Source: Balneolaceae bacterium (lineage in GTDB: Bacteria > Bacteroidota > Rhodothermia > Balneolales > Cyclonatronaceae). Taken from it: a stretch of 35,095 nt of DNA. Positions 11,785-32,025 of this stretch are shown piece by piece. Position numbers and translations under genes: made by a program. The notes under the pieces are model-generated. The model searched no databases, was not told the DNA's origin, and was given only the letters and a program-made list of their open reading frames with translations. Location of the stretch: assembly GCA_007694035.1 (NCBI GenBank), contig RECM01000166.1:1-35095 (forward strand). The letters are read 5' to 3'. Each line of letters opens with the position of its first letter. Position 1 is the stretch's first letter.

Positions 11785-11794
11785 ACCAAATTAA

Positions 11795-15306: not shown

Positions 15307-15600
15307 CGGGATGTGTAAAGTCTGATTCGGTCCGGATCAGTGACCGACGATCAAGGACCGACATGGTATCAAGAATCTTGGTTTTCAGGATACTGAATAC
15401 CAGGATTCCGAACAGGCAGGATTAATAGTAACCAGGATCCGGGGTATGCAGTACCAGGGTCTTCAGCACCCGTGTTTTTCAACTCCGGGATATTCATGGC
15501 CCGGGTAATCCGCGTTAGATTCATCCGTATTAAAAATCAATAGTTTACAATTAAGCATAACAAACAGATGTGAATCAGAATCACATCGGAGAGGAATAGA
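15307..15600 (+). promoter_or_regulatory. Spacer with hairpins upstream of CsbD
   Basis: CTGATTCG and CGGATCAG (15322-15340) can form a hairpin after the lipoprotein gene, but without a T-tract. ACCAGGAT-like words recur loosely between 15390 and 15460. Just before the CsbD ribosome-binding site lies GATGTGA-N7-TCACATC (15567-15587). It contains TGTGA-N7-TCACA, one base wider than the CRP/FNR-family consensus. It could be an operator or a leader hairpin that masks the GGAGAGG at 15588-15594. Confidence 0.5.
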
Positions 15601-15798
15601 ATGGAAGACCTGTTCATCAAAGGAAAATGGAATGAAATAAAGGGAATTCTCAAGCAGGAGTATGGCGAGCTCACCGACGACGAACTTGCCGTGGCCGAGG
15701 GCCAGGAGGATGAGCTTTTCGGCCGCATCCAGAAGAAATTTGGCAAGACCCGCGACGAGATCGAGTCCGTTATCAAGGAAAAGATGGATTCAATATGA
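15601..15798 (+). CDS. CsbD family stress protein
   Basis: The 65-residue soluble protein matches the CsbD family: [23 protein letters not shown], then [20 protein letters not shown]. The family is induced by general stress in many bacteria; its function is unresolved. GGAGAGG lies 6 nt before the ATG. The last gene before a composition change, it is convergent with the phosphatase operon that ends 84 bp downstream. Confidence 0.95.
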
Positions 15799-15881
15799 GT
15801 GTTGTGGATCCATCATTGCAATAAAAACATTAGAATAAAACGCCTCCCCTGATTTTGCCGAATTTCCGGAGTATCAATCCC

Positions 15882-17192
15882 TCAGTTAGTTCGATTAAGC
15901 CCGGGGAACTCATCAATCACTTCACCGGTGCTGCTGATAGCCTTAAAATGTCTGTGTGTGCCATGCAGTGTCATCAATATGAAATGTCGTTCGGAAGCTG
16001 CCTCTGCTATATACCAGCTATCATGCGACTGGCGCGACCCGATGATTCTGGTTTCGGTGCCCCAGGCGCCATCACCAATGTAAACAACACCATTATGTGA
16101 TATTCTGCCATCACGTATCGGGTGGGTTCTTTTGTAAGCATGATCGTGTGCCTCAAATACGACGTCCACATTGTATCGCTCGAAAAGAGGCACCCAGTTA
16201 TTCCGGACCCTGGCCTGAACTTCATCGTTGTAATCCCTCACAGACGGGTATGCGGGTACGTGGTAGCCGGGGAAAATGTGCGGAATATGAGCCCTTTCTG
16301 ACAATACATTCCGAAGCCATTCATTTTGATTTTCCACCGGGTTTACATGGTCGGTGTCCAGCAGGATGAGAGACATATAATCACCAAAATCGAGCACACC
16401 GTAACCAGGAAGGCCCGGACTCGCAAAAAGGCTGAAGAAGTATGGAGCTACGGTCTGTTTCCACTCATTGGTATCGGAATATGGCGGGTCGTCAGGACGC
16501 CTGTCATCACGGGTATAGTAGCCTCCTCTGACTTCATGGTTACCGATGGTAACAATCATGGGCACTACTCTGTAGTCATCGGTAATGAGTGTGTTTTTGT
16601 AAGCATCAAAAAAACTGTACCACTGGTTTTCTACCCGCGGGTTTTGAGTGTCACGTTGGCGCTGCTGCTCAGGAGGTAACCCATCGGCATAGGCCAGGTC
16701 ACCCATAATCATCACAAAATCGATGTCAAACTTCATAGCCTGACGGGCTGTTTTTTCCATCCAGCGTTTGCGGTGCATGGTATCGCCACCGATTGCCGCT
16801 CGTACCGGTTTCGATAAATCGGCCGGCATGGTCCTGAAATTGTAAACTTTTGAACTTTCGCCAAAGCGGAACTCATAAACGGTACCGGGCTCCAGACGCG
16901 TCAGCTCAACCCGGTGAATAGTTCGTGCAGAATGGGGAAAATCGATGGCAGTCGCAGCAATGGCATCACTCCATGACCCTCCGGGCAACCGGTATTCCAG
17001 TATGGTGCGATCTTCGTCAATGATATGCCAGTCAATAGTCATGGTTGTGGTTGGGTCGTTCTGCCAGGTAAGGTAAAGTGCAACCGGATCGTAAAATGGA
17101 GCATCGTTCAGGTTAGACTGTGCCTGAACCGGATCAGGGAACAGAAAAAGTAGTAGCGCCAAAAAGAGACCTGATGATAATTTGGTTTGCAT
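15882..17192 (-). CDS. Purple-acid-phosphatase-like metallophosphoesterase, secreted
   Basis: This 436-residue protein has a signal peptide (ending PVQAQ), a fibronectin III-like N-terminal domain (about 30-122) and a calcineurin-type metallophosphoesterase domain. The metal-site motifs are complete: GGD (Asp137), GDLAYADG (Asp165, Tyr168), GNHE (Asn218, His219), GYH (His311) and AHDHAYKR (His349, His351). The Tyr of GDxxY is the usual purple-acid-phosphatase iron ligand. It should release phosphate from organic monoesters outside the inner membrane. It is second in an operon: the upstream paralogous gene ends 8 bp before its start codon. Lower GC than the genes to the left. Confidence 0.93.
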   Translation of the reverse strand: MQTKLSSGLFLALLLFLFPDPVQAQSNLNDAPFYDPVALYLTWQNDPTTTMTIDWHIIDEDRTILEYRLPGGSWSDAIAATAIDFPHSARTIHRVELTRLEPGTVYEFRFGESSKVYNFRTMPADLSKPVRAAIGGDTMHRKRWMEKTARQAMKFDIDFVMIMGDLAYADGLPPEQQRQRDTQNPRVENQWYSFFDAYKNTLITDDYRVVPMIVTIGNHEVRGGYYTRDDRRPDDPPYSDTNEWKQTVAPYFFSLFASPGLPGYGVLDFGDYMSLILLDTDHVNPVENQNEWLRNVLSERAHIPHIFPGYHVPAYPSVRDYNDEVQARVRNNWVPLFERYNVDVVFEAHDHAYKRTHPIRDGRISHNGVVYIGDGAWGTETRIIGSRQSHDSWYIAEAASERHFILMTLHGTHRHFKAISSTGEVIDEFPGLNRTN

Positions 17193-17200
17193 GGAATAGG

Positions 17201-18535
17201 TTAGTTTAGATTGAGATCATTGAAGATTTTTTGCCTGCCTGCATCAACCGTTATTTTAAATTCATCCACGATTTCCCTGCTCAGGTTAAACGCCTGATAA
17301 TGCAAGGTATCCCGGGTAAGATGAATTGCCTGATACAGTTGCATATTTTCGAAACCAACATCATACCAGGTATGATTGGGATCAATGTCGCGCATTTTGG
17401 GGCCCGCAACAGAAATGATGTAAACAGGTATGGCATTGGTTTCGAGTGAGTCCGGCCCATGCCCTCGTGCATACAGATGGTCGTGTCCCTGAAGCACCAG
17501 GTCAACTCCGTACTCATCGAATAAAGGCTTCCACTGGTCACGGAGCCATTCATTTTCACGGTCTTCACGGGCGGTGTAAACCGGGTGGTGAAAGGTTACA
17601 GCAGTCCATGGCTGAGTATTAGAAGCCAGTACCTCTTGCAGCCAGTCAGTTTGAGCCTGAACCAGTTCTGGTGTTACCTGAACACCATCGCGGATGTAAA
17701 TCTCACGATCATCCTCAACAGATTCAAAATTGGAATAGAGGCTAATTACGCGGATTCCAGGGTAATCGACATAATAGGTCACGTTTTCCAGACCCTCTGG
17801 CCCATTTTGCGGAACATTGAAGGCAGCGTGCCATTGGGGATATAGTTTTCGGGTATCAACAGGCTCAATAGCAAGGCGGTTGTGGTCGCTGTTTCCGGGC
17901 GCAGGGAGTTGAGCTGTTTGTCTGAAAAGCCATGAGCCTGCTTCAAAAAACTCTCCCCATGTGTCGTCGTTACCGCTGCTTAAAACAAGGTCGCCTGCAT
18001 GCACTATGAAACGTGCATCGGGAAAGTGACCGGCTATGGTGTTATAAACACGGGGTGCGTAAGGGATGATGTCGTTCTGCGTGTCACCAACATACAGAAA
18101 AGTAAATGGCTCAAACGTTTCGGGTGCAGTTGAAACACTGAACCATTCAGAACGATTTGAATCTGAGCCAACACGTACCAGATAGCGGGTATCCGGTTCA
18201 AGACCCTCTACATTCACTTTATAGTACGAGTCTGTGAATCCATCGAAATGTACACTGTGTGCTGTTGCCGGAAACGTTCGTATGGTATCATGAAAATCTG
18301 AGCTGTTCGAAAATTCTGCCACTTCTGCATAAGCAGGTTTGTCCTTTTCGGAGCTTCTCCATGCAAAGGCCAGTTCACTATGGGGATGTTCAGACAGGTT
18401 TTGAACGATTCTGTCAGGCCCGGGGGCCGGTGTAAAAACACGCGGGCTTATAGTGTCTGAATCCGGTGTACAACCAAAACTGGTAACGATTATGATCGAA
18501 GTGGTGACGATTACTGCAATAGGGTTTTTCCACAT
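17201..18535 (-). CDS. Purple-acid-phosphatase-like lipoprotein with altered active site
   Basis: This 444-residue paralog of the downstream phosphatase is lipid-anchored (TSFGC, Cys22). Its layout is the same: fibronectin III-like region (about 40-137), then a metallophosphoesterase domain with GDTQ (Asp151), GDLV (Asp182), FHHPVY (His316, His317) and GHDHLYARG (His351, His353). Two departures stand out. GNHE is replaced by GNSD followed by His (Asn215, Ser216, Asp217, His218), so the usual catalytic histidine is missing or displaced. The tyrosine after GDL is also absent (GDLVLSSG). It may have changed activity or bind a phosphorylated ligand. First gene of the two-gene operon. Confidence 0.88.
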   Translation of the reverse strand: MWKNPIAVIVTTSIIIVTSFGCTPDSDTISPRVFTPAPGPDRIVQNLSEHPHSELAFAWRSSEKDKPAYAEVAEFSNSSDFHDTIRTFPATAHSVHFDGFTDSYYKVNVEGLEPDTRYLVRVGSDSNRSEWFSVSTAPETFEPFTFLYVGDTQNDIIPYAPRVYNTIAGHFPDARFIVHAGDLVLSSGNDDTWGEFFEAGSWLFRQTAQLPAPGNSDHNRLAIEPVDTRKLYPQWHAAFNVPQNGPEGLENVTYYVDYPGIRVISLYSNFESVEDDREIYIRDGVQVTPELVQAQTDWLQEVLASNTQPWTAVTFHHPVYTAREDRENEWLRDQWKPLFDEYGVDLVLQGHDHLYARGHGPDSLETNAIPVYIISVAGPKMRDIDPNHTWYDVGFENMQLYQAIHLTRDTLHYQAFNLSREIVDEFKITVDAGRQKIFNDLNLN

Positions 18536-18877
18536 GATGAACAGTTTGTGTTGAACGATTTTTGCAAAAACTATAATAATGGCATGGGCATTACATTAAC
18601 TGCATGTTATGAAATTGTTAAGAATTGACAGGTAAACATGTGGGAGTTGCCTGATTCCCAATCAAAAAAGGGCCCAAAAAAACCGGGTTAGCTGAATCGC
18701 AGGAGATGTTCTCAAGCAAGTCGAACAACAGGCGGACTGTTAATTTAACCAGCAGTTAATAATAAGGTAACATAGGCTGGTTAACATGCTGAAAACGATA
18801 ACTGTTGATTCAACATTATCAATATGTTGCTTCTATTTTTATCGTCATACAACGTACCTAACCAACAGGAAATCAGC
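18536..18877. promoter_or_regulatory. Divergent promoter region with 9-bp inverted repeat
   Basis: This 342-bp AT-rich region lies between the phosphatase operon (left) and the LRR/receptor block (right). TTAACCAGC at 18745-18753 and its exact complement GCTGGTTAA at 18776-18784 are separated by 22 bp, so the arm centres lie 31 bp apart, about three helical turns. GTTAA-T-TTAAC overlaps the left arm (18739-18749). TTTTTGCAAAAA (palindrome) lies close to the phosphatase start. I see no clear RNA gene. Confidence 0.5.
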
Positions 18878-21202
18878 ATGATTCACACTATACCAAAGCG
18901 TTGTTTTTTGGTTCTTAAAACGCTCCTTTTTCTCACTTTAACAGTAGTACTTACAGCAGCTACAACAGCAGAAGTTGCCGCTCAGGCCAAAGTCTTCAAC
19001 GCTGATGGTCAGGAGCTGAATATTTCAAACACAGTTCAGACTGTTGCCGAAGTGGACTCGCTTGCCCTTGTGGCATTTTATAACTCAATGAGAGGCGATA
19101 CCTGGCTGGATAATACCGGCTGGCTGGTAGATCCGGTTGCTTTTTGGCATGGTATTACCCGCATTAATGAAATCGAACTCCCAAGTGGTGACAGGGAATT
19201 CAGGGTAACCCGTATGGAGGTGTTCCCGAACGATAACAATATGACCCGATGTGGTTATCTGCCACCTGAACTATCTGATCTTGAATATCTTCAGTTTCTT
19301 GAAATGGGACGTCAGTTTGTTTGCGGTGAAATCCCTGCAGAGATTTTTGATCTTGAGTTTCTGGTCCGTTTGCGTTTGAGGGGAAGTTTTCTCACCGGCG
19401 AAATACCGTGGGATGCTATTGCAAATGCAACGAGCCTTGCAAGACTTGAACTTGAGCAGAACGAACTTGAAGGTCCGGTTATGACCCCGGCTATCGCAAA
19501 TAATCAAAGGCTTGCCCGCATTACCCTGGATGAAAATATCAGGCTGACCGGTTCTATTCCGAACGAAATCCTGCAACTGGAAAACCTCGAGCGCTTCGGT
19601 GCCGACGGGTTGATCAACATCAGCGGTCCGATGCCGGATTTCTCGCAGCTTCCGAGCCTTGAAGTACTTGAAATTCAGTTTTCGAATTTCGATCCCGGAC
19701 CATTTCCGTCGTGGGTGCAAAATATGGGTGGTTCTGACGGAATTGAACGTCTTGCATTGCATGAAACGAACATACAGGGTGAGATACCACAATGGATTAT
19801 TGAACTTACCAATGTAAGTGAACTGAAACTTGGTGGTACCGGCATGGGAATGGATATGGCAAACTTCCCTAACATGTCGTTCCTTCCGGCTTTGAGAAGA
19901 TTCAGAATCTGGGGCGGGAATTTTACAGGTGAACTTCCGAGCTGGTTTGGTGATATGGATCTGGAAAGACTCTGGATTTCGTACACCGATATTGGCGGTG
20001 ATTTACCGGGCGATGTTTTCCAGAACCTGACTTCGCTTACTCTTCTTAAAATGCGCCACAACCAATTCACAGGCGGACTTCCACCCCAGATTCAGTCTAT
20101 TTCAGGACTCGATTACCTCGCATTTGAGTATAATCAAATGGAGATAGGCGACATACCCGACTGGATTGGTCAGAACCTGACCGGTCTGTCAAAACTGTAT
20201 CTTGGCGGAAGTGGTGTAACAGGAACAATACCTGCGTCGCTCTCAAACCTCGAAAGCCTCACACACATCCGATTGCAGCACAACCCTGATTTGGGCGGTG
20301 ATCTGCCGGCCTGGGTCTGGAACCTCGATCTGAATGCCCTTGATATATCCTACACCTCTATAAATGTAGGTGAAACCATACCCAGTCAGCTTCAGAACCA
20401 CCCAAGGCTGCAAAAACTTGGCCTTGCAGGTCTCGGTTTAAGCGGCGAGATACCATCCTGGCTGGGTGATATGCCATTCCTGAGAACAGACGGAACCAGA
20501 GACTGGCATCCCTACATCTCTCTGGCCGATAACAACCTGCGTGGTCCGATCCCGGCAAGTATGGGCAATCTGCAAACCATCGATTCTCTTAACCTGGCCA
20601 ACAATAACCTCGAGGGCGATATCGCAATGTTTGCCAACCTCGGTTCTCCTAACGAAGGTGCATATCTGCTTGGTGCATTTGATGTTTCGGGAAATCCGGG
20701 TTTAACGGGTGCAATTCCATCGAACATGATGAATTTCTACAGAATGCGTGTGTTTCGCTTCGATGGCACAGAGTTGTGTATGCCCGCCGGCTTCGACACA
20801 TTCCTGGCATCAGTGCTTGAAAATGGTGGTCGCAGTTCACTCACCAACCGTCTGATGCCGTATGCAAGTGTTACCGATCCGGAGACTATGCAATTTTGCG
20901 TCACTTCATCCATTGATGATGACCTGGAACTGAACCCATACATCTTCAGGCTTAATAACAACTACCCGAATCCGTTTAACCCGACTACCAACATCGTGTA
21001 TCAGATACCATTTGATGCCAATGTTTCACTGACGGTTTACAATGTTATGGGTCAGCGTGTTGCCACACTTGTAGATGAGTACCGGCCTGCGGGCAATCAT
21101 ACTGTAATGTTTGATGCACGGCACCTGGCAAGCGGTCAGTACATGTATCGTTTACAGGTTGGTGAGATGTCAATGACCAGAAAGATGACACTGGTTAAAT
21201 AA
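18878..21202 (+). CDS. Leucine-rich-repeat surface protein with type IX sorting domain
   Basis: The start at ATG 18878 is chosen over the in-frame 18824: AGGAAA lies about 6 nt upstream and a signal peptide ending VAAQA begins there, giving 774 residues. After the DSLALVAFYNSMRGDTW cap typical of bacterial LRR proteins come many plant-type repeats of about 24 residues (consensus LxxLxLxxNxLxGxIPxxL), to about residue 660. The C-terminus carries NYPNPFNPTTNIVYQI, VYNVMGQRVATL and TRKMTLVK: a type IX sorting domain closely like that of the BNR protein. Expected location is the cell surface, as an adhesin or ligand binder. It heads the low-GC receptor block. Confidence 0.93.
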   Translation: MIHTIPKRCFLVLKTLLFLTLTVVLTAATTAEVAAQAKVFNADGQELNISNTVQTVAEVDSLALVAFYNSMRGDTWLDNTGWLVDPVAFWHGITRINEIELPSGDREFRVTRMEVFPNDNNMTRCGYLPPELSDLEYLQFLEMGRQFVCGEIPAEIFDLEFLVRLRLRGSFLTGEIPWDAIANATSLARLELEQNELEGPVMTPAIANNQRLARITLDENIRLTGSIPNEILQLENLERFGADGLINISGPMPDFSQLPSLEVLEIQFSNFDPGPFPSWVQNMGGSDGIERLALHETNIQGEIPQWIIELTNVSELKLGGTGMGMDMANFPNMSFLPALRRFRIWGGNFTGELPSWFGDMDLERLWISYTDIGGDLPGDVFQNLTSLTLLKMRHNQFTGGLPPQIQSISGLDYLAFEYNQMEIGDIPDWIGQNLTGLSKLYLGGSGVTGTIPASLSNLESLTHIRLQHNPDLGGDLPAWVWNLDLNALDISYTSINVGETIPSQLQNHPRLQKLGLAGLGLSGEIPSWLGDMPFLRTDGTRDWHPYISLADNNLRGPIPASMGNLQTIDSLNLANNNLEGDIAMFANLGSPNEGAYLLGAFDVSGNPGLTGAIPSNMMNFYRMRVFRFDGTELCMPAGFDTFLASVLENGGRSSLTNRLMPYASVTDPETMQFCVTSSIDDDLELNPYIFRLNNNYPNPFNPTTNIVYQIPFDANVSLTVYNVMGQRVATLVDEYRPAGNHTVMFDARHLASGQYMYRLQVGEMSMTRKMTLVK

Positions 21203-21228
21203 TCTGAGCTCAGTTAATCATTCAAATA

Positions 21229-21270
21229 CAACCAATCACAGGATTTCTCTGTGATTGGTTGATTTATTTT
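21229..21270 (+). terminator. Strong intrinsic terminator / attenuator
   Basis: CAACCAATCACAG (21229-21241) pairs perfectly with CTGTGATTGGTTG (21249-21261), a 13-bp stem with a 7-nt loop, followed by ATTTATTTT. Only 25 bp separate it from the ATG of the first receptor, leaving little room for a new promoter. It may act as an attenuator between the abundant LRR protein and the receptor genes. Confidence 0.85.
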
Positions 21271-21295
21271 AGCCAGTCATAGATAAAAAGCCGGG

Positions 21296-23833
21296 ATGAA
21301 TCATTTTCAGAAGCTGGATGTATGGTCAATTTTACTGATTCTTGCAGCGCTGACCTTTGCGGGTTTTTCAAAATCCAGTGCAAAATCGTCTGACTCTTCT
21401 TTTGTCGTTACCGGTTCTGATTCACCTGCTCTGTCCGATTCAATACGCGTAACCAACGCTGTACCCGCAGCACTCACTGTGCAAAATTTTACCAGGTTTA
21501 CCGGGCAATCGCTATCGTCGTATCAGTCTGTTTTTGAACTCCCTGATGGCAGCATCAGCTTCAGGGGACTGGGTCCGTTCAACAGCCAGTTCCCCGATGT
21601 GTTGGTTGACGGTCAGAGACTTGCTTCTACAGGATTTGAAAACAGAAGCACAAATTTTTCGGGCATCCCCCGGTTACTATTTTCCGAAATCCGCACTATA
21701 ACGTCACCAACGCCGGAATTCTCATCTGTTTCTTCCGGAAGCCTGGTGCTTTTAAATACGAATACGTATGAGACGGCCTCACCGGGATTGACATTTTCTG
21801 CAGGCGGGGGTTTACAGGGCAGTAACCGGGATTTTTTAACTCCGGATTCCAGATTCAGTCTTTTCTATTCTGATGCTGTTGCCGATCAGGTCGATTTTTT
21901 TGCCGGGGTTTATCAGGATGGATTTTCATCCGGTACCAATACACTTCGGTTACAATTTGCTGCAGCCGATTTCGGCAACGGGATGGCAGATGTGATCGAC
22001 CGGATTCATTCCGGGGCCTCTTTTAACCGGCAATTGAACAGAGGCGCATTCTTTAATACTACCATCCGGCAGTCTGAAACCACCAGTTACAGGATAAACG
22101 GGTTTGTAAACCAGTTAAATGCGGATGTGTCCAGCCATCACTATTTTTTCAATTCCGGTACTGACTGGATAAGTCCACAGGAAACAGGTGCAACGGGGAA
22201 CAGAGGTCAGCTCGATTATCTTGTTGGTGTAATGGAAACCCGGCTCCTGCAATCCGCGCTTTCTGCCAACGTCAACCTCGGTTTTAACCGCTTTCAAATG
22301 CGGTTCACCGGAGGCTGGTCATTCGGGGGGAATACCGGGAGTGATTTAACCATTCCATTCCGGGCAGGTGCACTTAATTACGTGATAACAGAAGAAAGAG
22401 CGGGATTTCCGGTCATGGAGGTATCTAACCGGGAAATCAGAAATCAGGATTTGCGAATCGAACAAATGCGCGATATCACCCATGTGCAAAATGAACACAT
22501 TCTGAATACCGGATTGGACGTTGAATACCGCGTTGATGATGTTTTTTCTGTGCATACAGGTGCCCTGTTTACGAATGTCAGCAAAAAGGGCTCATTCAAA
22601 AATGCCGGACTCCGGCTGCTTGCCCTGTCATCAGTGGCCAATTTCAGACAATTAAACGGCCAGGAGCTTACACCTTTTGATGAACCCGGTTACAGGTTTA
22701 TGACGATGGTTAGTCCGGTTGATGCACAGCGGTTTTTCAGGAATAATTACTCCCTGTTCCGGCAGGATTTGCGTGAGCAAATACGATTGTCCGATTATCG
22801 TAACTATGGCCATTCTGAACAGGAATATGCAGGATATTTGATGTTATATGCTTCCCATGGAATTGCCGATATCCGGGCAGGTGCAAGGGTTTGGCATACT
22901 GAGGGCTCCTACACCGGCAAAAAAGTCGGATTCAACGAAATCGGGAATCATAGCGGTACAACTGATACCACTGCAACCGCAGCACATACTTATGTTTTAC
23001 CTTTCGCAGCTTCTCAGATCCGGCTTGCAGAGAAAATTGCTTTCAACAGTTCACTCAGTACCTCCCTTTACCGGCAGGATTACCGGTCGATTACCCCTTT
23101 CCGACTCGAAAATGTGGCAACCGGAAATATTTTTGAGGGCAACTCTTCGCTAAAACCTGCATTGGCGTTACACATAGATGCCGGTTTATTATGGTCCGGC
23201 ATCCGTGGCGGCGATGTACGGATCGGAGGTTTTTATTCAAGCCTGCAAAATCTGGTTATTGAAACGGAATCGGTTGTTACTGCCGGTGATGAAAGCACCC
23301 GGCGCCTGTCCGGTTTTGCCAACAATTCCGAAAATGCGCAAATAACAGGAATTGAAGCTTCATGGAATCAAGCCCTGCTGTTCCTGCCCGGAATACTCGG
23401 CAATACAGGTTTTACTGCTGACTACACACTCATGAACAGCAGTTACAGGCCCCGGGCAGAGGGGCCAGAGCTGGCATTTACCGGTGTGCCTGACTATGTC
23501 TATTCCGCATCTGTTTATTACATGAGTCCGAAATTCTCGATTTCAGCAAGACTATCGCATGTGGCATCGTTCACGGCAGCGTACATCATACCGGAAATTG
23601 ATCTGATTCAATTGCCGTCGGCCGAACTCCAGGAGGTAAGAACCACCGATTATACCCTGTTATCAGTATCGGCATCATTCAACATCAGTACATCGGTTTC
23701 CCTGTGGGTTGATGCTTCCAATATGCTGCCTGTTGAATTCACAGAGTACAGTGTTTCAGAAAATACCTATCCGTGGCAGAGAACCAGATATCAGCGCGAC
23801 GTTATTATGGCCGGATTTCAGCTAAGCTTTTAA
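21296..23833 (+). CDS. TonB-dependent receptor-like outer-membrane protein (variant, no CarboxypepD domain)
   Basis: The 845-residue protein has a signal region (about 1-30), a plug-like domain (about 55-155: SFRGLGPFNSQFPDVLVDGQ, later SSGSLVLLNTN) and a long barrel ending in Phe (GFQLSF). It lacks the N-terminal carboxypeptidase-regulatory-like domain of SusC-type receptors, and I see no clear TonB box. Shared blocks (WISPQETGATGNRGQ, DLTIPF, FDEPGY, FFRNN) show it is a diverged paralog of the receptor at 26751. TonB receptors import large or scarce nutrients; the substrate here is unknown. It is first of five genes in close same-strand order. Confidence 0.87.
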   Translation: MNHFQKLDVWSILLILAALTFAGFSKSSAKSSDSSFVVTGSDSPALSDSIRVTNAVPAALTVQNFTRFTGQSLSSYQSVFELPDGSISFRGLGPFNSQFPDVLVDGQRLASTGFENRSTNFSGIPRLLFSEIRTITSPTPEFSSVSSGSLVLLNTNTYETASPGLTFSAGGGLQGSNRDFLTPDSRFSLFYSDAVADQVDFFAGVYQDGFSSGTNTLRLQFAAADFGNGMADVIDRIHSGASFNRQLNRGAFFNTTIRQSETTSYRINGFVNQLNADVSSHHYFFNSGTDWISPQETGATGNRGQLDYLVGVMETRLLQSALSANVNLGFNRFQMRFTGGWSFGGNTGSDLTIPFRAGALNYVITEERAGFPVMEVSNREIRNQDLRIEQMRDITHVQNEHILNTGLDVEYRVDDVFSVHTGALFTNVSKKGSFKNAGLRLLALSSVANFRQLNGQELTPFDEPGYRFMTMVSPVDAQRFFRNNYSLFRQDLREQIRLSDYRNYGHSEQEYAGYLMLYASHGIADIRAGARVWHTEGSYTGKKVGFNEIGNHSGTTDTTATAAHTYVLPFAASQIRLAEKIAFNSSLSTSLYRQDYRSITPFRLENVATGNIFEGNSSLKPALALHIDAGLLWSGIRGGDVRIGGFYSSLQNLVIETESVVTAGDESTRRLSGFANNSENAQITGIEASWNQALLFLPGILGNTGFTADYTLMNSSYRPRAEGPELAFTGVPDYVYSASVYYMSPKFSISARLSHVASFTAAYIIPEIDLIQLPSAELQEVRTTDYTLLSVSASFNISTSVSLWVDASNMLPVEFTEYSVSENTYPWQRTRYQRDVIMAGFQLSF

Positions 23834-23865
23834 TATATCCATGACAATCGTTTCTCATTGAATCA

Positions 23866-26745
23866 ATGAAAATCATTCAAATTATAACAATCCGTTTATC
23901 ATGTTTGGTTTTTCTTCTGATGCTGCCCGTATCAGGTTTATGGGCACAAACGGGTTTTATAACCGGTGAAGTTACCGACGCTCAAACCGCAGAAACGCTG
24001 CCCGGCGCCACGTTGTACCTGACAGATTTACAAATGGGCGTTACTACCGATGTAGACGGCAGGTATATAATGAGAAGAGTTCCTGTTGGTGCCCATTCAA
24101 TGGAGGTCCGGTATCTTGGCTACACCACAAAAACAATTGAAATCGAAGTAAAAGAGGGTGAATATACCGAGCGTAATATAAAACTGTCGGCTACAGCCAT
24201 TCAGGCAGACGATGTGGTAATTCTTGCCATACAACGGGGTCAGTCACGGGCTTTGACACGCCAGCGTCAGTCAGCGAATATCAGGACCGTAATATCTGCA
24301 GAACAGATTGACCGCTTTGCCGATCAAACAGTAGGTGATGCCCTGCAGCGTATACCCGGCATGGGTCACGGCGGCGAAGCCAACATCAGGGGCGTTGGCC
24401 AGGGTATGAGCCGTGTTACCGTCGACGGGCAGCGCATGGGTTCGACCGGAGCAGACAGAAGTGTGGATTTGAGCACGATTTCGGCAGATATGGTGCAGGA
24501 GCTTGATGTTATAAAAGTGATTACCCCCGACTTGTCGGCAGATGCGTTGAGTGGAGTGATCAACATAAGTACCAGAAGACCAATCGGTGGTGAAAGAACA
24601 CTGAATGTGAGAACCGGCAGTGGTTTTCATCCCCGTTATCTGGACGAGGCCGGCCCAGCGTACCGGATTTCTGTAAGCTATGGTGACTCGCCAACATCCA
24701 ATTATTCCTATGGCATGAACGTTAGTTACCAGCGGGAGCCAGGAGCGCAGGAATCGGTCTCGTTTGGATGGCGCACCCGTAACCTTGGAACCGAGTTCGG
24801 TATCGTCGATCTGCTGGATAACCTCCGGTCCACGTACGACTTTGGAATCAGAGATCGCTATGGCCTGGGCGGGCAATTCACATTTCAACCCACAAGCCGG
24901 TCTACATATCATGTTCAGGGAATGTTCAACTACACCGAACGGCGTGATAACTCCCACAGTATTAACATCAATATTGCATCAGACGACTACACTACTCCGT
25001 TTCAAACGGGGCCAACACAGAGCGAAGGTGGCGGTTCAATCGGGCATGGTACCCGATTTGACAACAGGGATATTCATCAGTACACACTGCAGGCTGGCGG
25101 CAGGCATTTGCTGGATGGTTTTGATGTTGAGTATAAACTTGGCTGGGGTTATGGCAAAAGCACATCCGACCGCTATTCCATGAGCTGGTCAAACGGCCGG
25201 CCCGGTATCGATTTTTTTGTTGATATTCAGGACCGCTGGCGTCCCTCTGTTGATATTGCCACTCACAGCCCGCGAAGAGCTTATCCGAATAACGAGCAGA
25301 TTGCGCTTACTTCGTTTCTTGATCACACCATTGGAACACACGTCGATAATGAGATCACTGCTGCAATCGACCTGGAAAGGCCCCTGAGATTAGGACGCAT
25401 AAAATTCGGGGCAAGCGCATTGCTTGCTTTTCAGGATGGATACGAGCAGTACCTTGATATGGCGTGGGACAGCCGCGAAGGACCCGGAAGTTTTGCACAG
25501 CTTTCTGCAGGGAGCTGGAATGTATTCGACAGGGAGGGCATTGCCTACGAAATCCGCTATCTCATAGATTCGCAGCGATTTGTAGAGGCTTATGAAAACA
25601 GGTACCCGATGTTGATTAAAAACGTAAACCGTTTTGGCGAATCAGAAAGTACCTTCTATAAAAGCAACGAAAATGTTTTAGCCACTTATGGCATGACGCA
25701 GCTTAACGTGAGCCGGTTAACCTTTTTAGGGGGAGTACGCGTTGAGCACACCATATCAGGTAATGAGGCGAGGGAGTCGCTTTTTTCAGATGGCGGCAAT
25801 TATTTGGGTTCCAGAAAAATAACAGCATCCAATTCCTTTACCAATGTTTTCCCCAATGCGCAGCTCATTCTCAGAATGACCGGTTTCACCAATTTCAGAC
25901 TTGCATACTCACGCTCCATTGGCCGTCCCACATTCAATCAGCTGTCACCTTTCCGGGAATACAATTACAATTCGAGAGAAATCCGGTACGGAAATCCTGC
26001 TCTGAAGCCAATGGTTTCCGAAAATTTTGACGTCATGATCGAACACTATTTCAGGAATGTAGGTCAGGTAAGTGCCGGACTTTTTTATAAAAAACTCGAC
26101 AATTTTGTCTTCTCAAGACGAAGCAGAATTGGAGAAAATGGCTTCAGTGAATTTGATGATCTTCCCAGAGGCGATACACCTGATCGGTTTATAGGATGGA
26201 ATCAGACCACCTTTCTGAACGGAGATGATGCCGATGTTTACGGGTTGGAACTGAGCTGGCAGCAGCACCTCACCTTTCTGCCATGGTATTTCAAAAATCT
26301 GGGCATCTATGTGAACTATACCTATACCTATTCGCAGGCAGATATCGACCGCCTCAACGATGCCGGAGAAACGGTGCTGGTCCGCTTGCAGGATCAGCGT
26401 CCGCACGTGGTTAATATAGGATTGGAGTACTCCCGGGGCCGTTTTTCTTCCCAGGTTTCGTATCAGTGGAGTGATCCGTTTGTATCGTCGTATGCGAATG
26501 AGCGGGATTGGGTGCCAACCATTCAGCTTAATGAAAGGGTCTACCCGGATGTATATACCGATGGTGCAAGTGATCTTTCCATGACAGTTCGCTACAGAAT
26601 TTCCTCAAATTTCAGGCTTTGGGCAGACGGGTCGAATTTGCTCAATAACCGGTCGATAGATTACAGATATAACCAGGATTTTTACCCAACCAATATGGCA
26701 TTAAAAGGGCGTGAAATCACCGTTGGTTTACATTACAGTTTCTGA
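23866..26745 (+). CDS. Canonical TonB-dependent receptor with CarboxypepD-like domain
   Basis: At 959 residues this is the most typical receptor of the three. The signal peptide ends GLWAQ. A carboxypeptidase-regulatory-like domain follows at 29-112 (GEVTDAQTAETLPGATLYL, then DVDGRYIM). The plug at about 130-250 includes DALQRIPGM, EANIRGVG, RVTVDGQRM and LSGVINISTR. The barrel contains the RPTFNQLSPF and NPALKPMVSENFD blocks and ends LHYSF. The pattern is that of the TonB-Xanth-Caul-type receptor group rather than SusC, and no SusD gene accompanies it. It begins 32 bp after the previous receptor and is followed after 5 bp by the next. It probably provides the energised transport channel of the block. 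Confidence 0.94.
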   Translation: MKIIQIITIRLSCLVFLLMLPVSGLWAQTGFITGEVTDAQTAETLPGATLYLTDLQMGVTTDVDGRYIMRRVPVGAHSMEVRYLGYTTKTIEIEVKEGEYTERNIKLSATAIQADDVVILAIQRGQSRALTRQRQSANIRTVISAEQIDRFADQTVGDALQRIPGMGHGGEANIRGVGQGMSRVTVDGQRMGSTGADRSVDLSTISADMVQELDVIKVITPDLSADALSGVINISTRRPIGGERTLNVRTGSGFHPRYLDEAGPAYRISVSYGDSPTSNYSYGMNVSYQREPGAQESVSFGWRTRNLGTEFGIVDLLDNLRSTYDFGIRDRYGLGGQFTFQPTSRSTYHVQGMFNYTERRDNSHSININIASDDYTTPFQTGPTQSEGGGSIGHGTRFDNRDIHQYTLQAGGRHLLDGFDVEYKLGWGYGKSTSDRYSMSWSNGRPGIDFFVDIQDRWRPSVDIATHSPRRAYPNNEQIALTSFLDHTIGTHVDNEITAAIDLERPLRLGRIKFGASALLAFQDGYEQYLDMAWDSREGPGSFAQLSAGSWNVFDREGIAYEIRYLIDSQRFVEAYENRYPMLIKNVNRFGESESTFYKSNENVLATYGMTQLNVSRLTFLGGVRVEHTISGNEARESLFSDGGNYLGSRKITASNSFTNVFPNAQLILRMTGFTNFRLAYSRSIGRPTFNQLSPFREYNYNSREIRYGNPALKPMVSENFDVMIEHYFRNVGQVSAGLFYKKLDNFVFSRRSRIGENGFSEFDDLPRGDTPDRFIGWNQTTFLNGDDADVYGLELSWQQHLTFLPWYFKNLGIYVNYTYTYSQADIDRLNDAGETVLVRLQDQRPHVVNIGLEYSRGRFSSQVSYQWSDPFVSSYANERDWVPTIQLNERVYPDVYTDGASDLSMTVRYRISSNFRLWADGSNLLNNRSIDYRYNQDFYPTNMALKGREITVGLHYSF

Positions 26746-26750
26746 TCACG

Positions 26751-29336
26751 ATGAATATCAAAACAGTTCCTACTCATTTCATCCCCAAACTGAAGTACCT
26801 CACCTGCCTGGCAGGTCTGGCGGGTCTGAAAGGTCAGAAAGGTCTGACAGCTCTGGCGGGTTTGAAAGGTTTGGCAGGTCTTACCGGTCTTACCGGTTTG
26901 ACTGCTCTGAAAGGTTTTACAGGTTTGGCAGGTACATTTCTGGCATTGGCCTGGTCGCCCGTTTTCGCACAAACGCATCAGATGGATGATGAGATTGAGC
27001 TGGTTCACGAACAGACCCTGGAAACATCAATCAGCAAACATCCGGGCTTTTATCTGGATTTAGACAGGAATCTTGTATATCGCGGCCTGGATGCTGCCCG
27101 AATTGCTTTTACCCTGAATGGAATGCCGCTGGCGGTAAGCACCCCCGATCAACGCGGCGTTTTGACGGCTGCCTTTACGCCGGATGCCTTCAGGCAGGTT
27201 GTGATACGCAGGTCACTAAATGCAAACCAGTGGGCAGCTCCGGCTGGTGTGGTAATCGACCTTCAAACCATGTCGGATGCCCCTGTTACCGGTCGTTCAC
27301 TGGTCGTGGCGGGTGGCGTTGGCACCTTTACCGATTATGGAAACTATGGAGCAATGGGATCCAGGGCTGCTGTTCAATACAGCGGTTTGGCCGGCGACGA
27401 TTTGGGCGTGGGCATTAACCTGGCATATCAGAACGGCTTTGATGCTTTCGAACAGCTGAATATGAATTATGTGGTTTCCACCTTTAACGGCAGTGCCACA
27501 GATTTTTTGAGAAACGTATCACCATCGCTTCAATTCCATCAGAATGAAAAATTAAACGGTAACATCTGGCTTGATTATCAACCCAATGCGTTCACGCGTC
27601 TCAGGCTTACAGCCGGTTACACGCAGTCGTCATTGCAGAACGACATCCACAGACGAATGGATGAAACCATGGGCGACTGGATAAATCCCGGGGAATCTGG
27701 TGCAACCGGGGCACAGGGTTTCACCATGTATGAAGCGTTTTTGGGAGAAACAGGTTTAGATCAACTCGATGTGCAGGCGCGGGGCAGTTCCCGGATAAAT
27801 GCTGTTAAAATGGATTATGGAGCATACTGGTCGCAGGCAGTTAACAAGTCAGACAATCTGACGATGCCTTTCAGACGGGATGGCATCAACTTCCTGATCG
27901 ATTTCGAAAACAGGGCCCGGCCCTTCATGGAAATAGCCAATATTCCAACCCTGGAAAACGGCACGGTCGATTACCGGAACATGAGACTTGCCTTCATCAA
28001 TGAGCAATTGCAGGAAAACACAAATAATCAGCTGGGCACCTATGTTGATGTATCATTGCCCGACCTGAACCTCAAAGCAGGCGTTTCTGCAAGAGTAACA
28101 CTCCATGATGGATTTTATGAGGAAGCAGACTATTCTTTTTTCCAGGTGTTGAATTTGTACCGCTTTTTTATGATTCCGCAGGGCAGCATCGAAGTTTTTA
28201 ACCAACCCGGTTATCTGGTCCCCTGGCTGATTGAAACCGATTATGCACGCTCATTTTTCAGAGGTAACACGCCACGCTTCAACAGAAACGAAGATCAGGT
28301 TTTTGTCAACTCGGAGTTCAGAAACTTCGAACTTACCGAAGGTTTGTATGCAGCGCATATTTCCGGCTCTGTGCAGGCAGGAGCGCTCAATACAACAGCG
28401 GGAGTTCGCTATGAGTACACTTCAGGTACGTATCGTGGCTTTGATATTGCAGAAAATGGTGAGGGCGACCGGGAATCTGAGACTCTGAAAAGGGAAATCA
28501 ATTTTGGAAACCTATTTCCATTCTTTCGGGCCGATATCACCCTGCTTGAAAATACGGGTATTACGGCAGGGTACAGCCGGGGAATTTACCGCCCGGGTTA
28601 TTTTAAACTGACCCCCTTTTCAAACAGAAACGAACAAACCGGTCTCATCAACCGCGGGAATTCCCGTTTGAAGCCCGAATTCACCGATAATCTGGATGTG
28701 GGGCTGAACTGGCAGCCCATCCGCTCAACAAGCATTCGCGCCGGCGGATTTTATATGATTTGGTCAGATGCCATCAGTCAAGCAATCATTCAAACCGATG
28801 ACAGCCTTCCGGTTCTTACATGGCTGAATGCTGACGAAACGATTTCGATTTATGGTTTTGAGTCGTCGCTTAGGCATCGCTTCTCCTATTTGCCCCGTAC
28901 ACTTGACGGCCTGGCATTGCATGTACATTACACCTGGACACGCTCCGATTACACCGATGGCGACCGATCGGGTGTGCCGTTTCCGGGTCAGCGTGAACAT
29001 GTAATCAATGGCGGTTTATCTTATGAATATGGCCGCTTCTCTGGCACTGTTCACTATCAGTTTGCATCGGGAACAACGCTCGCGCTTGCTACGGAACCGA
29101 CTCAAATACCATCTCAAACAGATCCGGTTTACCTTGACCTGAAGGAATCCGAAAAAACGATGCTATCTGCTGCGATGCAGTTCAGGATTTCAGACAATTT
29201 CACCTTTTGGGCCGACGCATGGAACCTGCTTAATCAAACCCAAACGGTGTATCAATACTCAGAGAAACGCTATCCGGCCCTGATTCGTGAAAACAGTGGA
29301 TTTTACTTCCGGACCGGTATCCGGTATCAACTATAA
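26751..29336 (+). CDS. TonB-dependent receptor-like protein with repeat-expanded signal peptide
   Basis: The 861-residue protein starts 5 bp after the previous stop, implying translational coupling. Residues 20-61 are fourteen Leu-x-Gly-type tripeptides encoded by a 9-bp tandem array, lying between a basic N-terminus and a signal-like end (FLALAWSPVFAQ, cleavage near residue 74). Thus the array lengthens the hydrophobic part of the signal peptide to roughly twice normal size. A reduced plug-like region (about 85-170: YRGLDAARIAFTLNGMPLAV) and a beta-barrel ending GIRYQL follow. It shares INPGESGATGAQG, NLTMPF, FNQPGY and FFRGN with the receptor at 21296. It has no CarboxypepD domain. Confidence 0.88.
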   Translation: MNIKTVPTHFIPKLKYLTCLAGLAGLKGQKGLTALAGLKGLAGLTGLTGLTALKGFTGLAGTFLALAWSPVFAQTHQMDDEIELVHEQTLETSISKHPGFYLDLDRNLVYRGLDAARIAFTLNGMPLAVSTPDQRGVLTAAFTPDAFRQVVIRRSLNANQWAAPAGVVIDLQTMSDAPVTGRSLVVAGGVGTFTDYGNYGAMGSRAAVQYSGLAGDDLGVGINLAYQNGFDAFEQLNMNYVVSTFNGSATDFLRNVSPSLQFHQNEKLNGNIWLDYQPNAFTRLRLTAGYTQSSLQNDIHRRMDETMGDWINPGESGATGAQGFTMYEAFLGETGLDQLDVQARGSSRINAVKMDYGAYWSQAVNKSDNLTMPFRRDGINFLIDFENRARPFMEIANIPTLENGTVDYRNMRLAFINEQLQENTNNQLGTYVDVSLPDLNLKAGVSARVTLHDGFYEEADYSFFQVLNLYRFFMIPQGSIEVFNQPGYLVPWLIETDYARSFFRGNTPRFNRNEDQVFVNSEFRNFELTEGLYAAHISGSVQAGALNTTAGVRYEYTSGTYRGFDIAENGEGDRESETLKREINFGNLFPFFRADITLLENTGITAGYSRGIYRPGYFKLTPFSNRNEQTGLINRGNSRLKPEFTDNLDVGLNWQPIRSTSIRAGGFYMIWSDAISQAIIQTDDSLPVLTWLNADETISIYGFESSLRHRFSYLPRTLDGLALHVHYTWTRSDYTDGDRSGVPFPGQREHVINGGLSYEYGRFSGTVHYQFASGTTLALATEPTQIPSQTDPVYLDLKESEKTMLSAAMQFRISDNFTFWADAWNLLNQTQTVYQYSEKRYPALIRENSGFYFRTGIRYQL
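26808..26933 (+). repeat. 9-bp x14 in-frame coding minisatellite
   Basis: Fourteen 9-bp units of the form CTG-NNN-GGT (for example CTGGCAGGT, CTGAAAGGT, CTTACCGGT) encode Leu-Ala-Gly, Leu-Lys-Gly and Leu-Thr-Gly. Two units have Ala and one Gln or Phe in variant positions. The period keeps the frame whatever the copy number. Confidence 0.93.
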
Positions 29337-29360
29337 ACACTCTCAAGACGATTAATTTAT

Positions 29361-30308
29361 ATGAACCTATCAAGAACGGGTATCATGCCCGTCCTTTTTG
29401 CTTTATTGTACATACTCTCAGGCTGTTCTGCGCAAAAAGATGACCGCCCCACCGGGAAGATTGTTGCCTGGGGGCTGGATGATTACGGACAAGTTTCCAA
29501 CCTGCCCCTGGGGGATGATTTTGTGGCCGTGGCAGCCGGTAACAAACACAGTATTGCACTTCGAAAAGATGGACGCATTGCAGCGTGGGGATATGACAGC
29601 AGCGGCCAGGTTTCGGAAACCCCAACCAATGATGGGTACACAGCCATATCAACAAGTTACAATCATAACCTTGCACTCCACAGAGATGGCACCATAAGCG
29701 CGTGGGGGCTGGATATGAGCGATATGGTTTACAATACACCAACCGGAAACGATTTTGTGGCAATTGCAGCCGGTTTTAATACCAGTATGGCACTGCGAAA
29801 GAATGGAACGGGTGTCATTTGGGGAGGACCTTATGGCCGGGGAACAGAATTGTCTGATGTACAGGGTATCAGCTACAACAACGATTTTACTGATATTGCC
29901 ATTTTCAATTCGCAGCATATGGGTCTGACCCGCGATGGAAGAATTATCGCCTGGGGCAGTGATTTAATGGGTTCAGTTGATAATACCCCTGCTTCTGACG
30001 GATTTCTGAGCATGTCGGCCGGCGGACGACATGGGCTCGCGATTGCCGCCGACAGCACTATAACCGGCTGGGGATGGGATTTACGCAATGAAGTGAGCGG
30101 GAAGCCGGATGGACCCAATTTTGTTTCCCTGTCGGCTGGGTTTGCACACAACCTTGCCCTTGATGCAGATGGCAGAATTCATGTTTGGGGATGGAGCCGG
30201 GGGAACCACAATCAGGTTGAACATACACCCGAAACCAGCGGTTTTATTTATATAAGTGCAGGAACGTATCATAATCTTGCTATCCAGAAATCAGGGGTGA
30301 ATGAGTAA
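29361..30308 (+). CDS. RCC1-like seven-bladed beta-propeller lipoprotein
   Basis: The 315-residue lipoprotein (lipobox LSGC, Cys22) consists of seven repeats of about 39 residues with the RCC1 pattern: xIxAWGxDxxGQV, a TPxxDGF stretch, then xAIAAGxxHxLALRxDG. Seven repeats are the number needed to close an RCC1-type propeller. The fourth repeat is slightly longer (GGPYGRGTELSDVQG). Bacterial RCC1 proteins are usually binding platforms; no catalytic motif is seen. It begins 24 bp after the receptor stop and its stop codon overlaps the next start by one base, so it belongs to the receptor operon. A surface-exposed partner of the receptors is inferred. Confidence 0.9.
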   Translation: MNLSRTGIMPVLFALLYILSGCSAQKDDRPTGKIVAWGLDDYGQVSNLPLGDDFVAVAAGNKHSIALRKDGRIAAWGYDSSGQVSETPTNDGYTAISTSYNHNLALHRDGTISAWGLDMSDMVYNTPTGNDFVAIAAGFNTSMALRKNGTGVIWGGPYGRGTELSDVQGISYNNDFTDIAIFNSQHMGLTRDGRIIAWGSDLMGSVDNTPASDGFLSMSAGGRHGLAIAADSTITGWGWDLRNEVSGKPDGPNFVSLSAGFAHNLALDADGRIHVWGWSRGNHNQVEHTPETSGFIYISAGTYHNLAIQKSGVNE

Positions 30309-31426
30309 TGGCCGGGCGATTTAATTCTCATAACCTCTGTTGCGCAATCCTGGCCATTGCAATGATATCGGGTTGCAGCTCTTATGAACAGCAGAACTGG
30401 CCTCAATTTGGCGGTGACGCACAAAACACTTCGAATAGCGCCCGGGGCATTAATCTTGCCGACCCGGTAAGCAGCTGGCGATTTGAAACGGATGGCCCCA
30501 TACGAACGGGCCCCGTTGTATACGGTGGTATCGTTTATGCGGGCAGTGGAGATAATGGCTTCTACGCAATTAATGAAAAAACCGGAGACTTAATCTGGCG
30601 GTACCGGTTATCCAGACCGGTTACTTCTGCGGCACTTGTAACAGACAGGGCAGTGTATTTTGGCGGCGGAGATAACGCCATGCACGCGGTAAACAGAGAA
30701 AACGGACGCAATATCTGGAAATTTCAGACGAGTGGAACTGTTTCATCTGACCCCAAACTGTCGGAAGGTCTGTTGTTTTTTGGCAGCTGGAACTATACGT
30801 TTTATGCCGTAAACGCCGACACTGGTGAAGAGATCTGGAACTTTCGTACAGGAAGGGCCATAAGTGCAGCTCCGGCTATTTATGAAAACCTGGTTATTTT
30901 CGGGAGTTGGGATGGCACAGTGTATGCACTGAACAAACAGGACGGGGCCATGGTCTGGACGTACGAAACGGGCGACGGTGTGGCTTCAAGCCCGGCTGTA
31001 TCTGATGGCATTGTTTATGTAGGCAGCCGTGACCACCACTTGTATGCACTGGATGCCGGTACCGGTGAACGTAAATGGAGAGCCGGGGGTGGTGCATGGT
31101 TTGATGCAAGTCCGGCAATAAGTCAGAATCTGGTAATTGCTGCCAATTATGACCATCACATTTACGCAATTGATCGAAATACCGGTGAAGTCGTCTGGAA
31201 ATTTGCTGGAGAAGGCCCAATATTATCGAGTCCATCGATTGCTGGTAATCAGATTTTTTTTGGAAGCTGGCGCAGGGTAATCCACGCCTTAAACCTGGAA
31301 AATGGCGAAGAGATCTGGCGCCAGCGTATTCGTGGCGATATTCAGTCAAGCCCGGCCATTGCGAATGGCAGAATATACATCGGCAGCAACGACGGCATTT
31401 TGCATGCAATCAGTAATTCTGATTAA
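30308..31426 (+). CDS. PQQ/BamB-like eight-bladed beta-propeller lipoprotein
   Basis: The 372-residue lipoprotein (lipobox ISGC, Cys23) has about eight repeats of 40 residues with the PQQ-propeller pattern: SSPAVSDGIVYVGSxDxxLYALDAxTGExxW. It resembles the BamB fold, but BamB is normally encoded alone or with der, and here the gene overlaps the RCC1-like gene by one base (TAATG). The PQQ-dehydrogenase catalytic residues cannot be identified, so it is probably non-enzymatic. It is last of the operon that begins with the first TonB receptor. A function as a receptor lid or ligand-presenting subunit is inference. Confidence 0.9.
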   Translation: MAGRFNSHNLCCAILAIAMISGCSSYEQQNWPQFGGDAQNTSNSARGINLADPVSSWRFETDGPIRTGPVVYGGIVYAGSGDNGFYAINEKTGDLIWRYRLSRPVTSAALVTDRAVYFGGGDNAMHAVNRENGRNIWKFQTSGTVSSDPKLSEGLLFFGSWNYTFYAVNADTGEEIWNFRTGRAISAAPAIYENLVIFGSWDGTVYALNKQDGAMVWTYETGDGVASSPAVSDGIVYVGSRDHHLYALDAGTGERKWRAGGGAWFDASPAISQNLVIAANYDHHIYAIDRNTGEVVWKFAGEGPILSSPSIAGNQIFFGSWRRVIHALNLENGEEIWRQRIRGDIQSSPAIANGRIYIGSNDGILHAISNSD

Positions 31427-31722
31427 AGCCGTACGACATTGCATGACCCGTCACATGATCGGGGCATTTCTCACAGGGAAGATGATAAAGGCCGGGGGGC
31501 ATGTTAAAAACCGCAAGAAGTTTTCCCTGTCAATCCCTCAAATATAGTTATTTGGGGGATCCGGATAACGCTGACTTCAAGAATCATGGCTAACATTCTG
31601 CATCAGCCAGCCCGGAACAGTTGACTCCCACCGGAGTGTATAAGCCGGATTCGCAGAAGTTCGCATACAATAGAGCGACCAACTGCCAGGACAAATAGCG
31701 ACTACAATCAGTCATAAAACGA
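31427..31722. other. Gap with hairpin, no gene
   Basis: A 12-bp hairpin with one G-U pair lies at 31533-31560 (ATCCCTCAAATA, loop TAGT, TATTTGGGGGAT). There is no T-tract after it, so it is a weak terminator candidate for the receptor operon. Nothing else is recognisable. Confidence 0.5.
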
Positions 31723-31992
31723 ATGGGTTTTAAAATCAGCACCGGGAAGCGGCAAAACAGCAGCATAGCCAGTTCACTGGCCGGCGGGCTTATCTGCGGT
31801 GTGCTGTCGGCCATCGGCTTTTACGTCGCCCTTGTTGATCCCGCCATATCGGGAGGCATCCCCTTTCTTGCCGATGAGGCGAACCGGACCCTGGGGAGGG
31901 TTGCCTTTGGCGCCGGCGCGGTGATCACCCTGCTGCTGGCGCTCTATGCCTTCCGCGAGGCGCTGGCCCTGTACAGGGAACGGCGCGGGTAA
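31723..31992 (+). CDS. Small two-TM membrane protein, unknown function
   Basis: The 89-residue protein has two predicted membrane segments (about 18-40, LAGGLICGVLSAIGFYVALV, and about 61-80, FGAGAVITLLLALYAF). A short loop separates them, and the tail is basic. No family recognised. Codon and GC composition are high-GC, like the main genome and unlike the preceding block. A good intrinsic terminator 34 bp downstream supports it as a real transcription unit. No clear ribosome-binding site is visible. Confidence 0.65.
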   Translation: MGFKISTGKRQNSSIASSLAGGLICGVLSAIGFYVALVDPAISGGIPFLADEANRTLGRVAFGAGAVITLLLALYAFREALALYRERRG

Positions 31993-32025
31993 GTGGTTGA
32001 AAAGAATTGCAGTTGTATCAAATTT

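Follow-up and report, generated by a model that had tools for sequence, protein, structure and literature searches.

Receptors of the TonB-dependent class, in which a plug sits in a barrel, are taken to require TonB. The described systems closest to the locus considered here include SusCD loci (e.g., BT1762-63), in which a receptor with a CarboxypepD domain and a TonB box stands with SusD beside catabolic enzymes; according to the available extract of PMC7782687, growth on levan requires the TonB box of the SusC protein BT1763 and also its CarboxypepD extension. In the BtuBG (vitamin B12) and XusAB (siderophore) systems, a propeller lipoprotein gene adjoins the receptor gene, and BtuG and XusB are described as lids on their TonB-dependent transporters in the extracts available of PMC10404256 and PMC13142918, respectively. 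Here we compare these systems with a locus in a 35,095-nucleotide stretch of DNA from Balneolaceae bacterium (contig RECM01000166.1 of assembly GCA_007694035.1, positions 1 to 35,095), which we call the window. An earlier note, made from the sequence alone, had described an operon of three TonB-dependent receptors and two propeller lipoproteins without SusD in this stretch.

The five open reading frames of that operon (R1, R2, R3, RCC1, and PQQ) are where the earlier note placed them, all on the plus strand, with gaps of 32, 5, and 24 bases followed by a 1-base overlap. This five-gene set is real, but the unit begins further to the left, with a leucine-rich-repeat (LRR) gene and two divergent purple-acid-phosphatase (PAP) genes. 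The earlier account did not mention the phosphatases, the LRR gene (the partner that recurs most constantly), or the absence of TonB boxes from R1 and R3. The features are as follows.

15882..17192, minus strand: PAP2, predicted purple-acid-phosphatase-type metallophosphoesterase, 436 aa (PF16656, 51.9 bits, cut-off 30; PF00149, 46.7 bits, cut-off 21.5; metal-ligand motifs)
17201..18535, minus strand: PAP1, predicted purple-acid-phosphatase-type metallophosphoesterase, 444 aa, lipobox-like N terminus (PF16656, 49.1 bits, and PF00149, 51.2 bits, both above cut-off; metal-ligand motifs)
18824..21202, plus strand: LRR protein, 792 aa, C-terminal type IX sorting domain (LRR families and Por_Secre_tail above cut-off; AlphaFold2 model)
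21229..21261, plus strand: terminator-like hairpin between the LRR gene and R1, 14-pair stem and T-rich tail (fold calculation)
21296..23833, plus strand: R1, short TonB-dependent-receptor paralog, 845 aa, without CarboxypepD and without a recognizable TonB box in the expected place
23866..26745, plus strand: R2, full TonB-dependent receptor (CarboxypepD, TonB box, plug, and barrel), 959 aa (Pfam, TIGR01782)
24208..24228, plus strand: TonB box of R2, DDVVILA, followed by RGQSRALTRQ (coordinates counted from the translation)
26751..29336, plus strand: R3, short TonB-dependent-receptor paralog resembling R1, 861 aa
26808..26933, plus strand: 9-bp tandem repeats, in frame, within the part of R3 that encodes its signal peptide
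29361..30308, plus strand: RCC1-repeat propeller protein with a lipobox, 315 aa
30308..31426, plus strand: PQQ/BamB-type propeller protein with a lipobox, 372 aa, outside the conserved core

A SusD-less module

The SusD families PF07980 and PF14322 match the genome from which the window comes 6 and 4 times, respectively, and none of these matches is on the window's contig, in agreement with the earlier claim that SusD is absent. The contigs that carry the module in 15 genomes also have no match to PF07980 or PF14322, versus 62 and 60 matches elsewhere in these genomes, and all 15 module genomes searched own SusD elsewhere. Loss of SusD from the lineage is ruled out, as PF07980 is present in 140 of 146 relatives. 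The module is thus a SusD-less one of the order Balneolales that combines an LRR protein with a single TonB-box-bearing receptor and its box-less paralogs; its cargo in the window is phosphatases. We infer its substrate, the formation of a complex, and the uncoupling of R1 and R3, and give the resulting mechanism a probability of about one half: the module would be an uptake system that likely scavenges phosphate esters, in which the LRR protein captures, R2 imports, and R1 and R3 are TonB-uncoupled partner barrels.

The locus resembles SusCD loci in that R2 is a CarboxypepD-bearing receptor with a TonB box and stands beside catabolic enzymes, including pectin enzymes in the relatives of Gracilimonas. 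In contrast with SusCD loci, the window has two box-less receptor paralogs and an LRR protein with a type IX tail in addition to lacking SusD, and it has phosphatases in place of glycan enzymes. R2 scores 52.5 bits against the SusC/RagA subfamily TIGR04056, whose cut-off is 368, and both R1 and R3 lack the SusC-type CarboxypepD extension as well as a recognizable TonB box. In the titles and abstract beginnings of open-licence PMC articles, we found no description of a module combining an LRR protein, three receptors, and propeller proteins.

TonB boxes and plugs of the receptors

R2 is canonical, as the earlier note stated: its CarbopepD_reg_2, Plug, and barrel matches are all above the Pfam cut-offs, and it scores 391 bits against TIGR01782 (TonB-Xanth-Caul), above the curated cut-off of 310. 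In contrast, R1 (158 bits) and R3 (163 bits) reach about half of that cut-off and have no CarboxypepD match in Pfam. The description of their plugs as reduced is correct, because the Plug family of Pfam scores them at 15.8 and 16.6 bits, respectively, under its 23.9-bit cut-off. R1 is modeled as a plugged TonB-dependent-transporter barrel (pLDDT 84.8, pTM 0.82), to which siderophore receptors and TbpA are the nearest in fold in the PDB; residues 16 to 62 are disordered in the model (pLDDT <50).

Complete receptors were sorted by length and tree position into an R2 class (22 receptors), a short class (24 receptors of 823 to 911 aa, comprising R1, R3, and their counterparts in relatives), and 6 intermediates that have kept CarboxypepD; the sorting excluded fragments and the unrelated receptors L051, L074, and L075. 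With the plug position anchored by alignment in all 52 receptors, 20 of 22 members of the R2 class have a TonB-box-like motif directly ahead of the plug. The short class has such a motif in 1 of 24 members, where it lies inside the plug helix, and the intermediates, with decayed boxes, have none (0/6). These counts supersede those made by placing the plug with a regular expression alone, which found it in only 7/22 R2-class receptors, 17/24 short receptors, and 3/6 intermediates. The signature RGQxRA follows the same division, with 22/22 in the R2 class, 0/24 in the short class, and 1/6 among the intermediates. Pfam finds CarbopepD_reg_2 in 20 of 20 R2-class receptors (two cut-off rows excluded) and in none of the 24 short ones; since CarboxypepD was partly used for the sorting, only the TonB-box count is independent. 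No TonB box is recognizable by motif ahead of the plugs of R1 and R3, and their sequences suggest that these two receptors are probably not driven by TonB.

The plugs have also been conserved to different degrees. Between paired loci, the R2 plug is 85 to 98% identical and is above its barrel in 6 of 6 pairs (plug/barrel ratios of 1.13 to 1.30), whereas the short receptors, in 11 comparisons, have plug identities of 30 to 79% and ratios of 0.80 to 1.24; the plug borders for these identities were set by hand. All six locus pairs have short-receptor plugs that are less identical than the R2 plug. For R1 and R3 of the window, compared with the loci G008 and G032:C83, the ratios are 0.83 to 0.89, which is below 1 in 4 of 4 cases. 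The window and G008 proteins are 47% identical for R1 and 50% for R3 versus 77% for R2.

It is possible, although clearly less probable than the uptake mechanism given above, that all three receptors are ordinary TonB-dependent transporters that act independently and import three related substrates, with divergent boxes in R1 and R3. R1 and R3 do retain a plug and a barrel, all 24 short receptors match TIGR01782 at an E value of ≤0.001, and in most of them 20 to 60 residues separate the plug from a guessed cleavage site, which is space for an odd box. However, 23 of the 24 have no conserved box-like motif, versus the box found in nearly all of the R2 class, and one short receptor (L048:10757-13378, Gracilimonas mengyeensis) appears by reading to have just ~10 to 15 residues ahead of its plug. 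The decayed boxes of the six intermediates also argue against three independent transporters.

In a tree of 46 receptors, there is a supported R2-type clade of 16 rows, and R1 (5 rows) and R3 (6 rows, one with CarboxypepD) each form a supported clade of their own. The short receptors of the pectin group form two further clades. Because the deep branching is resolved only in part, the loss in the short receptors may have happened once or several times. In a large protein set, of which the ~8000 best candidates were scored, R1 and R3 each match 5 rows at an E value of ≤1e-20, their own rows included; a genome-contig scan with R1 as the sole query returned no relative.

Some individual receptors have features of their own. 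A weak Collagen match in R3 was rejected, as it is the 9-bp tandem repeat within the signal peptide instead; these repeats (GLx-type residues) enlarge the signal-peptide region, the orthologs inspected do not have them, and length variation is possible. The R2-type receptors of L039 and L041 exceed 1050 aa and carry an extra N-terminal segment, with a FecR gene at L039:5833-6942. STN matches 2 of 20 R2-class receptors, and these features suggest sigma/anti-sigma control in those relatives, not in the window.

Recurrence, LRR protein, and cargo

Among 128 Balneolales genomes, 14 carry the LRR family at an E value of ≤1e-60, at 22 places in all; of 395 genomes drawn from the phylum, 6 have it, all of them Balneolales. 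A same-strand TonB-dependent-receptor gene is the direct neighbor at 19 of the 22 places and lies within two genes at 20; the other two (G038:C346 and G038:C320) sit at ends of short contigs. The named LRR loci are the best 80 of 500 in a genome-contig scan, and as a control we used the 67 more distant ones among them (L091, L092, and L095 to L159), at none of which is there a match to R1, R2, or R3 above 45 bits (0/67), several of these contigs being short. R1 has relatives at an E value of ≤1e-20 in 17 of 146 related genomes, often as several receptors in tandem. All 14 genomes with the LRR family (a count that omits 7 of 21 genomes in which only the sorting tail matches) are among these 17 (hypergeometric P = 6e-17), as are 13 of the 14 genomes with a short RCC1 protein (P = 3e-14; the exception is G095), a count that omits 2 of 16 genomes whose RCC1 proteins are much longer. 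Two LRR-family genes also occur in L085, a 5-kb contig labeled Limnochordia, which is probably misbinned.

Fifteen loci, on contigs of at least 8.7 kb, could be judged: the window, G008, G032 (two loci), G023, G012 (two loci), G030, G045, G071, G037, G069, G059, G028, and G038:C53. G069 is Gracilimonas mengyeensis DSM 21985, G071 is Balneola sp. EAC52, and G032 and G008 are Balneolaceae/Balneolales bins; the remaining seven LRR places are on contigs of <6.3 kb. The five-gene order that the earlier note proposed to look for recurs in G008 and G032:C83, and there the whole set is kept in order, with PAP2 and PAP1 divergent from LRR-R1-R2-R3-RCC1-PQQ. The arrangement is thus more than a chance one.

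The LRR protein scores 35 bits against Por_Secre_tail (cut-off 27) and 41.9 bits against TIGR04183 (cut-off 23), and it is predicted to be secreted via the type IX system. Its AlphaFold2 model, built with 10 sequences (pLDDT 81.1, pTM 0.69), is a solenoid with a C-terminal beta domain, and the closest solved folds are plant LRR receptor ectodomains, at TM-scores of 0.3 to 0.45. The LRR protein shares the type of solenoid with ectodomains such as those of FLS2 and ERL1 (28% identity to FLS2 over 610 alignment columns, E value of 6e-26). The window protein differs from these plant receptors in that it is bacterial, has a type IX sorting domain, and has no kinase, and the TM-scores of only 0.36 to 0.43 mean that its overall curvature is different. 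In all 16 LRR genes with enough flanking sequence (six lacked it), the 130 bases 3' of the gene fold more stably than shuffled sequences (z of −2.3 to −6.8). These folds, examined at LRR gene ends only, are mostly a single long stem-loop with sequences unrelated between members, which suggests that transcription may end or pause after the LRR gene.

Phosphoesterase genes are found at 6 of the 15 judgeable loci and pectin genes at 4. PAP1 and PAP2 are both present at the window, G008, and G032:C83, and PAP2 is present at G032:C180; at G030 the contig ends in a PAP2-like fragment and also carries a gene for an 817-aa metallophosphoesterase, and G012:C6a has an alkaline phosphatase. A GDPD gene follows PQQ in G008, and at G032:C180 a GDPD_2 match just below cut-off lies between R3 and RCC1. 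The neighbors in G071 are a GDSL esterase, GH28, a pectinesterase, and UxaE, and homologs of this pectin set occur in G037, G069, and G059, although not each gene is in each genome. The Balneolaeota isolate of PMC6243061, which in the available extract does not use pectin, was uninformative. Other loci have DUF6807 and DUF4962 genes (G045), a sulfatase and a LacI regulator (G028), or a GH2 enzyme (G038:C53). Only 20 neighbor genes outside the window were annotated with Pfam, and other cargo may therefore be unseen. Because the neighboring enzymes differ, with phosphatases in the window and the pectin set in the relatives of Gracilimonas, the module looks like a SusD-less one with exchangeable cargo.

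The GC content drops from ~58% to ~47% across positions 14460 to 32000 (47.9% in the module versus 58.4% on its left side). Horizontal transfer is not established by this drop, as three other stretches of the same genome have 51.6 to 55.3% GC and the sequences on either side of the G008 module, itself at 48.9%, have 46.9% and 41.6%. The window has no Rfam family at the gathering score and no tRNA. To the left of the module are intergenic tandem-repeat arrays at 10405-12123 and 14613-14675 (units of 12, 22, 54, and 10 bp) and, at 14881-15306, a gene for a small protein with a lipobox-like N terminus and an sll1863-family stress-response domain barely above cut-off (38.7 versus 35 bits). An unlisted 65-aa open reading frame at 15601-15798 on the plus strand resembles, by eye, what we take to be a CsbD-type stress protein. 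Elsewhere in the same genome (L051, contig C268, 219-5043), a second PAP2-like gene adjoins another, unrelated TonB-dependent receptor.

Proposed uptake mechanism and alternatives

In the proposed mechanism, the LRR protein, once exported as predicted, would take the role of SusD and capture the substrate at the cell surface, and R2, the sole receptor with a recognizable TonB box, would import what has been captured. R1 and R3, which TonB would not open, may bind substrate or build a multibarrel complex with R2. PAP1 and PAP2 would free phosphate from the ester that has been imported or captured, and the RCC1 protein would be an auxiliary binder tethered by a lipid or membrane anchor. Since relatives combine this core with other catabolic genes, the cargo enzymes would set the substrate at each locus. 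In its boldest form, which we regard as tentative, this would be a three-barrel machine, free of SusD and with interchangeable substrate modules, in which a single TonB-driven channel is fed by two uncoupled TonB-receptor paralogs, acting as surface receptors, and by an LRR protein that resembles plant receptors.

Several observations weigh against the uptake mechanism. Phosphatase cargo is found at a minority of loci, and the phosphate-ester substrate is therefore a guess. In the pectin group, conservation of the short plugs sometimes exceeds that of the barrel (ratios of 0.81 to 1.24, the top value equaling those of R2). TonB boxes are degenerate, and the disordered N terminus of R1 holds a loose candidate, DSIRVTN. 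The co-occurrence statistics are inflated by shared descent, which the P values ignore. Finally, the hairpin may split the LRR gene and the receptors into separate transcripts.

The earlier note had proposed instead that the propeller lipoproteins cover the receptors as SusD does, in the manner of BtuG on BtuB and XusB on XusA. The idea is sound, given these precedents as far as they are described in the extracts cited above, but it is weak here, and we consider it unlikely. The protein at 29361-30308 is a seven-bladed, RCC1-like propeller as that note described it, with RCC1 repeats, seven WG repeat motifs, and a lipobox. For 30308-31426, the PQQ/BamB-type propeller and the lipobox were confirmed; a reading of the repeats gives about eight blades, whereas a blade regular expression found two. 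This protein is very regular, so that its best PDB sequence match is the designed propeller Cake10 (E value of 5e-106), and it passes the Pfam DUF5074 cut-off by 0.1 bit. Presumably BtuG is itself a DUF5074 member, an assumption that we did not use; the term was not found in the extract of PMC10404256.

Recurrence beside homologous receptors, which is what the propeller idea predicts, is seen for RCC1, whose gene comes after the receptors or the LRR gene at 13 of the 15 judgeable loci (not at G012:C6a and G030), so that the SusD-less multireceptor operon with propeller proteins does recur in related genomes. The PQQ gene, in contrast, is at only 3 of the 15; it is therefore not a constant partner and was rejected as a core component. 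Among 15 RCC1 proteins of the module (one cut-off protein and the G095 one left out), only 8 have the lipobox cysteine, and the other 7 begin with a hydrophobic anchor or a signal-like segment without the cysteine. The available extract of PMC5080379 gives the Capnocytophaga lipoprotein export motif as C-X-K-(D/E)2 and as position-critical. The lipoprotein signal of the window RCC1 protein, C-S-A-Q-K-D-D, has its lysine two positions off this optimum, and there is no conserved export signal. RCC1 follows a short receptor at G127:C232 and lies at contig ends at G127:C278 and, together with two PAP2-like genes, at G038:C413, but at G095:C324 it stands without receptors. Compared with BtuBG and XusAB, the module shares the adjoining propeller gene and differs in the RCC1 and PQQ types of its propellers, in the incomplete occurrence of the lipobox, in having several receptors, and in the LRR protein. 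The same genome also encodes long RCC1-repeat proteins (715 to 722 aa) away from receptors, at L077:1013-3160 and L078:8465-10633, one of them with a type IX tail.

Least probable of all is a role of the LRR and RCC1 proteins in recognizing or attaching to other cells or surfaces, with short receptors diversified under phage or toxin pressure and uptake secondary. In its favor, the LRR fold is nearest to plant receptor ectodomains and the outer receptors evolve fast; against it, many loci have catabolic genes alongside, and the plug of R2, itself a full transporter, is nearly invariant.

Propeller lids have already been described, and the new point is in the receptors, of which R2 keeps its TonB box while the short paralogs are without one. 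If the proposed mechanism is true, a box-keeping R2, box-less paralogs, and the intermediates between them would show a transporter turning into something else. A further consequence would be that, at loci whose cargo varies, bacteria with SusD genes elsewhere rely on a different candidate capture protein, namely an LRR solenoid ending in a type IX tail.

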